A program made the position numbers and the translations under genes. A stretch of DNA of 13,504 nucleotides from an uncultured bacterium (GTDB taxonomy: Bacteria > Patescibacteriota > CALEFQ01). The notes under the pieces are model-generated. The model was not told where the DNA came from. It saw only the letters and a program-made list of their open reading frames with translations, and did not search any database. Of this stretch, positions 4,083-10,351 are shown one piece after another. Position 1 is the stretch's first letter. Every line of letters starts with the position of its first letter. The DNA lies in assembly GCA_937877125.1 (NCBI GenBank), contig CALEFQ010000108.1:1-13504 (forward strand). The letters run 5' to 3'.

Positions 4083-4931
4083 TTACTCAACTAGGTAACG
4101 GGAAAAACCAGGACGAGCCCTGGCCGGGACTTGAGCCAGAAGCTTGGCCTGCTCCGGCTGACTAAAATGCCAGAGCATATCAAAAACTGTTTGAAACGTT
4201 TGAGCAATATCGGCATTCTCGATAATAGTGGTCATTACCGTCTCGCGCAGCGAAGAGAGAGAAATTTTTCCTCCCCAGATTATAATTTGGGAACGGAGAC
4301 GAAACTTTTCCGGCGGCAAAATGCGATTTTCAATATTACGACTGCGGCAATAATTGAGATAAACCTGGTCAAGCGAGGGAAAAAGGGAAATTAACGCCCG
4401 CGTTTTAAGACCGGCCCGATACTGACGACCGATCGATCGATTAATCAACCGGTTAAGCGCGGGATTATCGCGATCTGATTCGGCGGCAAAAATCGATAAG
4501 TCCGCCTTGTCGTGCAAAATCTCGTCATAAATAGTTTTAAGACCGCTCAAACCGGCTAAATGACGAATAAAAGGCTGGCTAGTCGACAAGGTGAAGAGGG
4601 AAGCCAGCTGGGGAAGTAACGCCTGCAAGTTTTTTTGTTGCAGACGTATTTTTTGCTCCTGTTCATTAAAAAGTTCCTGCAGGCGCCAGGGAGATTCTAC
4701 CTGGAAGATATCTTTGTTTTTTTGCCGGGTCTTCTTGATCAGACCCTGGGCCACCAGACGGTCCAAAATATAGTGTAAATCGCCCCGCTTATAACCGGTC
4801 AAATCGATCAATGTCCCGGCCGTAAGACGCCCTAAATTTAGCAGGTATAAGTAAACTTCAGCTGACTTTTGACTAAGGCCCAACTGCTCCAAGGCGACTA
4901 AGTATTGTTGGTTTTGGGGAGTTTTCATCAT
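4083..4931 (-). CDS. TrmB-family transcriptional regulator
   Basis: A 282-residue protein. Residues about 12-75 form a winged helix-turn-helix of the TrmB type (LGLSQKSAEVYLYLLNLGRLTAGTL, then GYKRGDLHYILDRLVAQGLI as recognition helix and wing). A Gln/Leu-rich helix (about 83-112) follows, probably the dimerisation coiled coil, and then a domain (about 120-265) resembling the TrmB C-terminal effector region. TrmB proteins were first described in archaea as sugar-responsive regulators; many divergent members occur in uncultivated bacteria with unknown ligands. Two ATGs stand side by side (4931 and 4928); the first begins about where transcription is predicted to start, so the mRNA is probably leaderless. 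The gene leads an operon with cca and is divergent from the folded leader and orphan gene at 5286, which makes that gene a possible target. Confidence 0.8.
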   Translation of the reverse strand: MMKTPQNQQYLVALEQLGLSQKSAEVYLYLLNLGRLTAGTLIDLTGYKRGDLHYILDRLVAQGLIKKTRQKNKDIFQVESPWRLQELFNEQEQKIRLQQKNLQALLPQLASLFTLSTSQPFIRHLAGLSGLKTIYDEILHDKADLSIFAAESDRDNPALNRLINRSIGRQYRAGLKTRALISLFPSLDQVYLNYCRSRNIENRILPPEKFRLRSQIIIWGGKISLSSLRETVMTTIIENADIAQTFQTVFDMLWHFSQPEQAKLLAQVPARARPGFSRYLVE

Positions 4932-6965: not shown

Positions 6966-8309
6966 ATGACCATAAAACCAGAAAATTTATTTCGGAAAGC
7001 CATTCTAGATTTCCCGGTTAAGACAAAACGGCTCGGAAAAGTTCGTTACGTCAATTTTGACCACGCCGCCACCACACCCCCTCTCAAATCCGTCGAAGCC
7101 AGCCTCGATTCTTTTATGGTTCGCTACGGATCAGTCCATCGCGGGGCCGGTCAAAAATCCCAGATCTCGACAAATCGCTACGAGCATACGCGTAAAATTA
7201 TCAGGGATTTCGTCAATGCTCCCAAGGATAGTTATGTGCTATTCACCGGCAACACCACCGGAGCTATGAATACCCTGTCTTACTTTTTGGCTTTCCTTTC
7301 GGGGAGAATCGCCGTTTCCGCCATTGAACACAGTTCTTCCTGGTTGCCATTTGTCAAGGCGGAAGGCGTAAAATTATTAGGTGCTAAGCAGGGATCGCTA
7401 TTCGAAATGGAAAAAATCAATAAACGAATCCAGATTTTCGGCCAGCGCCAAGTCTGTCGGTACCAACTAAATTCGCAAGGGGAATTTGACTTGACCGACA
7501 TTGAAAGAATTCTGCAACAAAAAAAGATAAAAGCCCTGGTGGTCACTGCCTCATCAAACCTGACCGGCTATTGCCCCGACTTAAAAAAAATTAGCCGTTT
7601 GGTCCATCGCTATGGCGCTTTATTTGTCGTTGATGCTTGCCAATACCTCCAGCATCATCCTTTGGATATGGAAAAAATGGGCATAGATTTTTTGGCTGCC
7701 TCCGGGCATAAGTTTTACGCTCCCTACGGCGGGGGATTTCTGATTGGGCCGAAAAAATTTTTAGATCGTTTTCTTTCTTATCAAATTGGGGGAGGCAATC
7801 TGCCGTATATTACTAGGTCCGGCGTTTTTTTACGTTACCCCAACCAACTGGCGCATGACCCCGGCACCCCGAACGCTGGGGGAGCCATAACGATGGCCGC
7901 CGCCCTGAAAACCTTGAAGAAAATCGGGCTGAAAAAAATCGAACGCTACGAAATTTATTTGTCGCGCCGCGCCTATGAAGCTATGCGAAGGCTTCCAAAG
8001 ATAAAAATGTTCGTCACACGAGAAAAATTGAATTCCGTTATCCCCTTTGTTATCCAGGGAAAGAATTCTAGCGAAGTAGCCCGCCGTCTCAATGAAGAAT
8101 TCGGTATCGGCGTCAGGGCCGGTAACTTTTGCGTCTATGAAGCTGTCCGAAATATGCTTAACCTGAAAAATGAAAAACAAATAACCCGAGCTGTCCGACA
8201 GGGCCGGCAAAAATCAGTTCCCGGGCTGATTCGTATTTCTTTGGGATTAAGTAATCGACCATCCGATATCACTCGCCTAATCAAGGCTCTGAAAATAATT
8301 TCTACCTAA
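6966..8309 (+). CDS. Class-V PLP-dependent enzyme, cysteine desulfurase-like
   Basis: A 447-residue fold-type I PLP enzyme of the SufS/CsdA/NifS group, which classically takes sulfur from cysteine as a protein persulfide for Fe-S clusters or thiolation. Visible features: FDHAATTPP near residue 31 and SVHRGAG (family N-terminal signature), TGNTTGAMN (cofactor phosphate loop), AIEHSS, Asp223 and Gln226 in VVDACQ, Lys249 in ASGHKFYAPYGGG (Schiff-base lysine), and RAGNFC with Cys389, at the position of the persulfide-forming Cys in the RxGxxC motif of SufS. The sulfur-relay residue is therefore present. Length is slightly above the usual 400-410. The ATG at 6966 has no SD. It leads a three-gene operon with two radical-SAM-type proteins, only 1 nt from the next gene; sulfur supply to those enzymes or their product is a reasonable inference. 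Selenocysteine lyase or another class-V activity cannot be excluded. Confidence 0.85.
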   Translation: MTIKPENLFRKAILDFPVKTKRLGKVRYVNFDHAATTPPLKSVEASLDSFMVRYGSVHRGAGQKSQISTNRYEHTRKIIRDFVNAPKDSYVLFTGNTTGAMNTLSYFLAFLSGRIAVSAIEHSSSWLPFVKAEGVKLLGAKQGSLFEMEKINKRIQIFGQRQVCRYQLNSQGEFDLTDIERILQQKKIKALVVTASSNLTGYCPDLKKISRLVHRYGALFVVDACQYLQHHPLDMEKMGIDFLAASGHKFYAPYGGGFLIGPKKFLDRFLSYQIGGGNLPYITRSGVFLRYPNQLAHDPGTPNAGGAITMAAALKTLKKIGLKKIERYEIYLSRRAYEAMRRLPKIKMFVTREKLNSVIPFVIQGKNSSEVARRLNEEFGIGVRAGNFCVYEAVRNMLNLKNEKQITRAVRQGRQKSVPGLIRISLGLSNRPSDITRLIKALKIIST

Positions 8310-8310
8310 T

Positions 8311-9480
8311 ATGAAAATAGCCGATCAGAGTTTCGCCGTCTGGGAAAAAATACTCAAAGAAATTCCTGTTGCCGTGAACAATTTTTACGGCGATCCGGTT
8401 TTGCAATGGAACGACACCTTGGAAAAACTGGAAAATTTACTGGCCACTGCGCACACCGGTCCGGTCGGATTAATTACCAAGGGGCGTTTGACCGAATCTC
8501 ATTGTCGGCGATTACAAAAATTTTCTCAAAAGGGACTCAAAATTATTGTTCTGGTTTCTCTTTCCGAATTAGACCAATTTGAAAAAATCGGGCAAGAGCA
8601 TCGTTACGAAAATTTGCGTCTCCTAACTGCTTTGGGAATAAAATGCCTCGCTTATTTTCGGCCCCTGACTCCTCCTTACAATACCTCCCCAGAGATTATT
8701 GAAAAAGTTTGCGCCAAAGTGGCAAAAACTGGGTGCCAGGTCATGGTCGCTTCCGGTTTCCGCGGGGACGACGCGATCATCCAAGACATGAAACCGGACG
8801 AAAAAACTCGCTGGGTAATGAGGGTAAAGCTTATGACCGGGGCTGTCTATCAAGCTCTGAAAAAAAATTGTCAGAAGCATAAAATACAGCTATTCACCCG
8901 AACTGCCTGTGCGATTTCTTTCCTTACCGGTCAAAAACAATCCTACAATCCCTATTATCACAGCCCGAACCTGGTTCACTGTGAAGACTTAAAATGCCCC
9001 TTACGCCTGACTTGCGGCCGTTCTTTTGCTCCTCGTCCGGAATCTCTCGCCTTGGCAAAATTTTTGTGTTATGAATTAGAAATTATCCCGGAAAAATGTT
9101 CAGAAACTTGCTCCATAAAACCGGAAAATCGCTTGGCATGCCCGTCTTGCTGTACCACCTGTTTCCGCTTGCGCGTTCCGCGCATACTCGTAAAAAATTC
9201 AGGTTTGCGATTAGGCGATCTGACTTTCATTCGTTTCTTAACTGGATGCCTGGCTGTCCAGCCCGGGAAAAAAGATGACGGCAGCCTTAAGGTCGGCTAT
9301 GTCACTTTGCCTCGATTTCCAAAAATTTCTGGTATCCAATGTCTAAACAGTTGGTGGCCTTACGCTCACATCGGTGACCGTTGTTTCGGCTGTCTGTATT
9401 GCGTCGAACGCTACTACGGAAACGCTCGGCGCAATTTTGGCTTTCCGCCAGCGAAGTTGCTGGAATTAATCAATCCCTGA
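8311..9480 (+). CDS. Cys-rich radical-SAM-like protein with C-terminal CxxCxYC motif
   Basis: A 389-residue protein with about 20 Cys. The N-terminal half resembles strands 2-6 of a radical-SAM barrel: NNFYGDPVLQW (23-33, compare the GGEP-type strand), PVGLITKGRL, a strand at KIIVLVSLS, and IKCLAYFRPLTPP. The usual N-terminal CxxxCxxC is absent. The C-terminal half carries Cys groups HCEDLKCPLRLTC, CSETC, CPSCCTTC and finally Cys358-x2-Cys361-x2-Cys364 in DRCFGCLYCVERYYG followed by FPPAKLLELI, which looks like the segment that normally begins a radical-SAM barrel. The order is thus possibly permuted; alternatively these Cys bind auxiliary Fe-S clusters and the barrel is inactive. The start is ATG 1 nt after the upstream stop (TAA-t-ATG), implying translational coupling. 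No named family was recognised. Confidence 0.75.
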   Translation: MKIADQSFAVWEKILKEIPVAVNNFYGDPVLQWNDTLEKLENLLATAHTGPVGLITKGRLTESHCRRLQKFSQKGLKIIVLVSLSELDQFEKIGQEHRYENLRLLTALGIKCLAYFRPLTPPYNTSPEIIEKVCAKVAKTGCQVMVASGFRGDDAIIQDMKPDEKTRWVMRVKLMTGAVYQALKKNCQKHKIQLFTRTACAISFLTGQKQSYNPYYHSPNLVHCEDLKCPLRLTCGRSFAPRPESLALAKFLCYELEIIPEKCSETCSIKPENRLACPSCCTTCFRLRVPRILVKNSGLRLGDLTFIRFLTGCLAVQPGKKDDGSLKVGYVTLPRFPKISGIQCLNSWWPYAHIGDRCFGCLYCVERYYGNARRNFGFPPAKLLELINP

Positions 9481-9481
9481 T

Positions 9482-10351
9482 ATGCCTAATTATTCCGAAC
9501 GAGATTTTGGATGTCCGGTGCAGTGTCGCTACTGCGCCGTCACTAAAGTTGATCGCCGCCGCCGGCAGTGGAACAAAAAAACACTGATCGGCTTAAACGC
9601 TTCCGTGACTATTATCAATCCGCCTCCGCATCCAACGCGACAATCATTGCGAGAGTTTTATGCTTTGCCGCCGGAATTGTTTCGCGGCGACCGCATCGGC
9701 TTTAACGCCATTTCCGATCCGTTTTGGCCGAAATACCGGCCAGAATTGGATTATTTTTTGACCGCCTTCTCTCCCGTCGCTAAAATTATAACGGCCGTGA
9801 CAAAATTTCCCGTTGCTCCAGAAATCATGGAAAAACTATCTAAGGTCAACAATTTCCGCTTGGTGGTTACCGTGACCGGATTAGATTCACTGGAAAAAGT
9901 GTCGACGGCCCGCCGGCTGGAAGTTTTGCGACAAGCCCGGTATTACGGGCTTCAAGCTTTTCCGATAATTCACCCATATATAGCCGGATTAACTGATTTA
10001 ACATTCTTGTCGGCACTGAAAAAAAACGGTTATGACAAGATCGGTATAAAAGGCCTGCGTTACAATTCACGAACCATGGACCCCTGGCTGCCTAGCGCCA
10101 GTCGATCATGGTATTCGGGACACGCCGAAAAAGAGATTCTACCGGATGACGGTTGGCGAAAAAAAATCACGCAAACTGGCCTGGAAATTACTGATTTGCG
10201 TTCATGGTATGACAGCGTATGCCCCGAAACACCGCGAGTTTCACAAGTCGAAGCTCGGCAGTCAGTCATGCAAATACTGCCACGCGCGAACATTACTTCT
10301 TCGCGATCAGCGGCAGAGGTTATTGATAGCGCTATCAGGCGCCGATTATGA
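9482..10351 (+). CDS. Radical SAM protein (CxxxCxxC)
   Basis: A 289-residue protein starting almost directly with the radical-SAM [4Fe-4S] motif: Cys11-x3-Cys15-x2-Cys18 in FGCPVQCRYCAV, with the aromatic residue before the third Cys typical of the superfamily. Later segments fit barrel strands: ASVTIINPPP, IGFNAISDPFW, KIITAVTKFP, RLVVTVTGLDSLE, RLEVLRQARYYGLQAFPIIHPYIAGLTD (strand 5 region), and YDKIGIKGLRYN. The C-terminus is basic and has one more Cys only, so no auxiliary cluster is evident. The enzyme would cleave S-adenosylmethionine to start a radical reaction; substrate is unknown. The DPFW motif recalls spore-photolyase-like and DUF5131-type proteins, but I cannot assign it. It is 1 nt behind the preceding gene (TGA-t-ATG), the last of the operon, so the two radical-SAM-type proteins probably act together or as a complex. 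Confidence 0.83.
   Translation: MPNYSERDFGCPVQCRYCAVTKVDRRRRQWNKKTLIGLNASVTIINPPPHPTRQSLREFYALPPELFRGDRIGFNAISDPFWPKYRPELDYFLTAFSPVAKIITAVTKFPVAPEIMEKLSKVNNFRLVVTVTGLDSLEKVSTARRLEVLRQARYYGLQAFPIIHPYIAGLTDLTFLSALKKNGYDKIGIKGLRYNSRTMDPWLPSASRSWYSGHAEKEILPDDGWRKKITQTGLEITDLRSWYDSVCPETPRVSQVEARQSVMQILPRANITSSRSAAEVIDSAIRRRL

Follow-up and report, generated by a model that had tools for sequence, protein, structure and literature searches.

A Cx3Cx2C motif at the N terminus, together with the Pfam barrel model, is what usually identifies a radical S-adenosylmethionine (SAM) enzyme. Among the described systems that invite comparison here, the lipoyl synthase LipS1/LipS2 is comprised of two radical-SAM proteins that are encoded together and jointly insert sulfur, according to the available part of its report (PMC10332631), and ThiC, the hydroxymethylpyrimidine phosphate (HMP-P) synthase, is presented in the available part of another (PMC4389238) as a radical-SAM barrel whose cysteines towards the C terminus depart from the canonical spacing. 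The locus considered here lies in a 13,504-nucleotide (nt) stretch of contig CALEFQ010000108.1 (assembly GCA_937877125.1; the window) from an uncultured member of the Patescibacteriota, and encodes a cysteine desulfurase-like protein (CD), an apparently permuted relative of the radical-SAM enzymes (R1) and a radical-SAM protein of canonical order (R2). A preliminary description of this DNA had proposed a tightly coupled operon of a desulfurase-like enzyme and two radical-SAM-type proteins, with no named pathway for the trio. The open reading frame (ORF) coordinates bear out the operon, as all three ORFs start with ATG on the + strand and exactly 1 nt separates each stop from the next start (Table 1). 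No named system was matched by the trio in Pfam, NCBIfam, PADLOC, PHROGs or the open-access literature, a scope outside which subscription journals and preprints mostly fall.

Table 1. Positions in the window of the three genes, their key residues and a neighbouring regulator gene
Feature	Position	Strand	Description
CD	6966..8309	+	447 aa; SufS-like pyridoxal phosphate (PLP) cysteine desulfurase; Aminotran_5
CD Lys249 (SGHK)	7710..7712	+	PLP lysine by alignment; invariant in 11/11 rows of A3; aligned with SGHK of the solved desulfurase 5b7s
CD Cys389 (RAGNFC)	8130..8132	+	Persulfide cysteine by alignment; invariant in 11/11 rows; aligned with RSGHHC of 5b7s
R1	8311..9480	+	389 aa; probable circularly permuted radical-SAM relative
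R1 Cys200/224/229/235	8908..9015	+	Putative ligands of auxiliary Fe-S cluster I; invariant in 28/28 rows of A1
R1 Cys267/277/280/281/284 (CxSCCTTC)	9109..9162	+	Putative auxiliary cluster II region; invariant in 28/28 rows of A1
R1 C-terminal segment, residues 343-389	9337..9477	+	Putative displaced β1, cluster loop and α1 (AlphaFold 2 (AF2) model); aligns with the sister family N terminus
R1 Cys358-x2-Cys361-x2-Cys364	9382..9402	+	Putative displaced radical-SAM cluster motif (motif script and A1)
R2	9482..10351	+	289 aa; canonical-order radical-SAM protein, spore photoproduct lyase (SPL)-like
R2 Cx3Cx2C (Cys11, Cys15, Cys18)	9512..9535	+	N-terminal; invariant in 24/24 rows of A2
TrmB-family regulator	4083..4931	-	Divergent, about 2 kb upstream of the operon; Pfam TrmB 5.1e-8

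The radical-SAM relatives R1 and R2

R1 gives no match to the radical-SAM Pfam family (PF04055), two of its homologues reaching 25 bits against a cut-off of 29.5, and its kinship with these enzymes comes from profile comparison and from a predicted fold of the radical-SAM barrel type. In the AF2 model (predicted template modelling score, pTM, 0.89) a strand at residues 348-353 is followed by the cysteine motif and then by helices. Protein searches returned 101 homologues of R1 and 78 of R2, and a motif script located a C-terminal Cx2Cx2C in 94 of the former; four of the remaining seven are without the motif and three are without a recognisable core. Across the R1 alignment (A1, 28 rows) Cys358 and Cys364 are invariant and Cys361 nearly so, and an N-terminal cluster motif occurs in none of the 98 homologues bearing a recognisable core. 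Because the motif is C-terminal and never N-terminal, R1 is best regarded as a permuted relative and not as a standard member of the superfamily. The preliminary claim of two radical-SAM-type proteins thus stands for R2, which bears Cx3Cx2C and an SPL-like profile match, but does not hold for R1 as an ordinary member.

The comparison that carries this argument is with a large, unnamed sister family (A6, 19 rows; typified by P0196 and P0287), which shares with R1 the same barrel, the first auxiliary cysteine set and the same Cx2Cx2C in a CF-C-YC context, but bears the motif at the N terminus. Rotation of R1 raises its score against this family from 267 to 301, a gain that is lost once the cut passes the motif, and the rotated profile gives a pairwise hhalign E-value of 1.5e-41. 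Likewise, the predicted fold of R1 matches known structures from past their cluster region, whereas the matches of the sister family take that region in. In local hhalign comparisons of 19 windows, none outscores the C-terminal 47 residues of R1; taken alone these match only weakly (E 1.3e-5 for the N terminus of R2 and 6.3e-4 for the SPL-like set), and the case for permutation therefore rests on the whole-profile scans and the sister family. Together these profiles and the predicted fold point very strongly to a circular permutation that has moved the cluster segment of R1 to the C terminus, where the C-terminal strand would take the β1 slot, and R1 is probably an active radical-SAM enzyme.

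A quite different explanation supposes that R1 is degenerate, having lost its N terminus, and serves as a scaffold or electron carrier, with a C-terminal CxxCxxC that is an unrelated ferredoxin-like or zinc motif. The complete want of an N-terminal motif among the homologues would agree with this, and CX2CX2C is also called a ferredoxin-type motif in the available text of PMC9431491. Yet the C-terminal segment aligns with the sister N terminus, the score rises only if the motif moves along, and a distant relative (L020_2, the same as L044_9) presents a C-terminal Cx3Cx2C of textbook spacing; we consider a degenerate R1 very unlikely.

Several observations nonetheless weigh against a permuted, active R1. 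The placement of the strand in the β1 slot comes from the pTM and from homology rather than from coordinates, and cluster and SAM binding are read from sequence and model. Some VIA rows for R1 begin at model residue 1 (5exi, root-mean-square deviation (rmsd) 6.1; 6fz6_A, rmsd 4.7), and unrelated TIM barrels are found among the lower Foldseek rows. Single-motif matches to R1 are not significant alone (E 7.7-52), and among 20 ORFs compared with R1, ten give a barrel match only and two match another region of R1, in one case the CxSCCTTC stretch. Direct kinship between the sister family and R2 was not detected (hhalign E 0.075), and no radical-SAM enzyme described with Cx2Cx2C was found in the literature searched. 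Judged by title or the opening of the abstract, neither a permuted radical-SAM enzyme nor a CD-R1-R2 system was found among the papers listed there, and in some papers pairing radical SAM with 'circularly permuted' the permuted item is, in the text available, a ligase or a methyltransferase.

Eleven cysteines of R1 are invariant and one is nearly invariant in A1, and two sets among them suggest two auxiliary clusters. Cys240/264/267/273 of the sister family, invariant in 19/19 rows, are the likely counterparts of the first set, and Cys304/310/317 lie in the region of the second. No SPASM Pfam domain was matched by R1 or R2 at E<=0.1, no named family lies above cut-off for either protein in Pfam, NCBIfam, PADLOC or PHROGs, and a PDB sequence search with the A1 and A2 profiles returned weak matches to unrelated proteins only. 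A precomputed Pfam domain is missing in 99 of the 101 R1 homologues, and the few names given by their sources are nearly all 'hypothetical protein'. As R1 and most of its homologues escape both the motif and the Pfam model, routine annotation misses this lineage.

R2 scores 21.2 bits (E 3.5e-4) against PF04055, below the cut-off of 29.5, and its membership in the superfamily thus rests on its motif, conserved throughout the R2 alignment (A2, 24 rows), and on its match to the SPL-like set (pairwise hhalign E 6.4e-14). It meets no NCBIfam model; TIGR04470 (radical SAM mobile pair protein B) gives 12.2 bits (E 0.088), where the equivalog needs 410 bits. By profile, R2 appears as a distant relative of R1.

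Other relatives of R1 occur in varied settings. The sister genes analysed (L060-L069) lie on viral contigs of 55-545 kb, and P0196 and P0287 have neither a PHROG match nor a Pfam match above cut-off. In L063, PurA-like and OMPdecase-like genes precede the sister gene; on a 545-kb viral contig (L049, 6373-6924) a protein that is AMMECR1-like by eye lies about 1 kb upstream of one; and L043 (8684-10141, - strand) encodes a fusion of a MazG domain with a radical-SAM relative of R1 that keeps the ordinary order.

Recurrence of the operon in genomes and viral contigs

When genome contigs were scanned with the R1 profile, 15 loci were recovered, all 15 of which keep the order CD-R1-R2 on one strand. 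The trio is therefore associated beyond chance, and the gene-neighbourhood search that the preliminary description had called for finds it well outside the window. By the labels of the metagenome-assembled genomes only, ten loci fall in Patescibacteria groups, three in Clostridia (R1 identity 36-38%) and two in Proteobacteria, and the few R1 and R2 homologues with a source-given organism are mostly from Patescibacteria groups, with one R1 labelled Micrarchaeota. Identity matrices of the three proteins correlate over 18 loci, namely the 15 genome loci, the window and two viral contigs (L047 and L048), with Pearson coefficients of 0.76 for CD/R1, 0.87 for CD/R2 and 0.89 for R1/R2. No gene family beyond the trio was found to be common to most trio loci.

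The module is rare. The phylum to which G001 (the source of locus L001) belongs was searched in 379 genomes; full-length R1 is present in three (G001, G002 and G120, all from the contig scan) and a remnant in G096, the other 15 of the 19 R1-profile matches being distant or ordinary-order relatives, or fragments. R2 is found at E<=1e-10 in the same four genomes, and a trio-type CD above 600 bits also in four (G001 twice, G002, G120 and G244), the next best scoring 270 bits. In the phylum of G006, with 199 genomes searched, full R1 is confined to G006 itself, the seed, with weak matches in six others. At L045 (7269-8630) a decayed trio is seen, in which an R1 remnant lies beside an open R2 frame and no CD is seen upstream.

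R1 and R2 are also carried together on seven IMG/VR viral contigs, two of which bear CD as well: L047 (112 kb), in the order CD-R1-R2, and L048 (98 kb), in the order R1-R2-CD. The viral status of these two is the IMG/VR assignment; one ORF of L047 matches phrog_1735 (unknown function), and three neighbours of the L048 trio have no PHROG match. In the other five (L050-L054) R1 and R2 lie upstream of a large ORF, R1 being truncated at the contig end in L051; the large ORF of L050 encodes a portal/minor-head protein (phrog_220, 1534 bits). Searches of the INPHARED phages (tblastn, E 1e-5) gave no match to R1 of L048, R1 of the window, L049_9 or P0287. In the available part of a report on phages of Patescibacteriota, two genes are named cysteine desulfurase (PMC12911398).

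Proposed sulfur supply, substrate and reaction

The desulfurase-like character of CD is upheld by its match to Aminotran_5 (E 6.4e-71, 239.7 bits) and by conservation of Lys249 and Cys389. Its best NCBIfam model is TIGR01979 (sufS), at 234.6 bits under a cut-off of 475.1. His122, Asp223, Gln226 and Arg423, which we take to be active-site residues, are kept along with Lys249 and Cys389 in all 11 rows of the CD alignment (A3).

Sulfur insertion, one of the roles that the preliminary description had offered, stays the leading guess, with LipS1/LipS2 as precedent in the available part of PMC10332631, while the substrate is not fixed. In the proposed mechanism, the C-terminal strand of R1 would replace β1 to complete the radical-SAM barrel, Cys358, Cys361 and Cys364 would bind a [4Fe-4S] cluster, and R1 would cleave SAM. 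R1 and R2 would then work jointly on a single substrate, in the manner of LipS1/LipS2, and CD would hand its persulfide sulfur either to the substrate or to an auxiliary cluster of R1 consumed as sulfur donor, such that a small substrate gains a C-S bond. By analogy, joint action of R1 and R2 is rather likely, and the odds that the product contains sulfur are about even. For the whole chain of a permuted and active R1, joint action with R2 and a sulfur product, we put the probability at roughly 0.4.

Some of the distribution tells against this chain. CD is present in two of eight viral records and absent from six (five with R1 and R2 and one with the sister alone, which may be fragments), and the sister family is without R2 or CD at 10/10 viral loci, up to 8 kb being searched on each side; sulfur may consequently lie outside the core reaction. 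Moreover, two orphan trio-type CD genes without adjoining R1 or R2 (L070, 7329-8891, - strand; L071, 5889-7244, - strand; contigs G001:C48 and G244:C21) are each followed directly by SAM methyltransferase-like proteins, mutually related and CmoA-like by eye.

CD could then be a private supplier of sulfur for the Fe-S clusters of two cluster-rich radical-SAM proteins, whose reaction would proceed without sulfur insertion. The cysteine content of R1 fits such a role, as do the five viral R1/R2 records and the sister family, which are without CD in the available sequence, and no SufB/D was seen in 7 of the 13 trio genomes searched, where CD may have a private Fe-S role. Another Aminotran_5 protein occurs in all 13, however, and SufB/D in six (one a weak single match), and hence the trio CD is not the sole candidate desulfurase; Fe-S maturation as raised in the preliminary description is weakened as a general need, and CD is unlikely to be the general Fe-S supply where hosts have Suf genes. 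The constant gene order and the want of any additional family common to most loci also count against a private supplier, which we judge rather improbable.

As to substrate, L006 and L015 each have an ADK-like kinase adjoining the trio, L050 has one between R1 and R2, and short ORFs between R1 and R2 in L051-L054 match the profile of this kinase. Both bacterial genomes, of L006 and L015, have other ADK-family genes. These ADK-like neighbours, the MazG fusion and the PurA-like and OMPdecase-like genes point thinly to nucleotides, each at one or few loci, and it counts against this that kinase neighbours occur at a minority of loci. A nucleotide or nucleobase as substrate is accordingly a tentative choice, short of even odds. 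The fullest scenario, in which R1 founds a permuted class derived once from the ordinary-order family of large viral contigs and works with R2 and the desulfurase in a phage-mobile module making a sulfur-containing nucleotide, is doubtful as a whole.

Modification of nucleic acid, that is of a tRNA or DNA base of phage or host, by sulfur or by another radical reaction, would suit the carriage of trio genes on viral contigs and the SPL-like profile of R2, spore photoproduct lyase acting on DNA. Many R2 homologues are also named 'DNA repair photolyase' by the Joint Genome Institute (JGI), but this is probably an automatic label; CD, R1 and R2 match no RNA- or DNA-binding domain of Pfam above cut-off, and for the window and seven of the 15 genome loci tRNAs are the only RNA elements to reach gathering threshold, scattered and with none common to the scanned loci. 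We regard this possibility as unlikely. The maturation of a ribosomally synthesised and post-translationally modified peptide (RiPP), in which R1 and R2 would make thioether-type links, is less probable by far: the peptide-modifying SkfB and SuiB are among the structures that R1 matches by fold, as are many further radical-SAM enzymes, but no conserved precursor was found, and of 1458 short ORF stretches lying up to 1.5 kb from the trio none is common to more than 2 of 20 loci, which weakens the peptide option of the preliminary description.

Relatives of the divergent TrmB-family gene are present at 7 of 16 trio loci, always on the opposite strand (the window, L001, L002, L007, L009, L011 and L015), with 20-34% identity in eight pairs compared among the seven proteins. 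In 6 of the 9 genomes compared, a TrmB match falls no more than 10 kb from the trio, where about 0.5 would be expected (Poisson 1.3e-5), the nine having been chosen from 13 after the pattern was seen. Regulation of the operon by this protein is possible and offers a lead. One further family, without a Pfam match and DHH-like by eye, lies beside the trio in L003 (10281-11216), L006 (3519-4523) and L007 (5495-6499); the N terminus of the L003 CD ORF matches its profile (E 2.4e-4), and the N-terminal extension of the L015 CD resembles it by eye only.

Significance and comparison with described systems

An active R1 would mean that the radical-SAM barrel can withstand circular permutation and carry its cluster at the chain end, and permuted and unpermuted families bearing the same motif would provide a matched pair for studying this tolerance. 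The trio would likewise serve as a small system for studying the division of work between a desulfurase and a pair of radical-SAM proteins.

ThiC, which is absent among the R1 fold-match rows listed, differs from R1 in that its motif, CX2CX4C, sits on a tethered domain inserted into the partner subunit, and no circular permutation is described in the available part of its report (PMC4389238). From spore photoproduct lyase-like proteins R1 is set apart by its permuted order and its extra cysteine sets. The Dnd/Ssp phosphorothioation systems resemble the trio in placing a desulfurase next to Fe-S type enzymes, and CD matches the SspA/DndA models; R1 and R2, in contrast, match no PADLOC model. 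CD belongs to the same sequence family as the SufS/CsdA group and has the PLP lysine and the persulfide cysteine of that group, but it falls under the TIGR01979 cut-off and has R1 and R2 as neighbours at every genome locus. LipS1/LipS2 is associated with a lipoate ligase, and not with a desulfurase, in the available part of PMC10332631, whereas R1/R2 are associated with a desulfurase; no lipoate ligase or octanoyltransferase was found among those trio neighbours that were scanned with Pfam.

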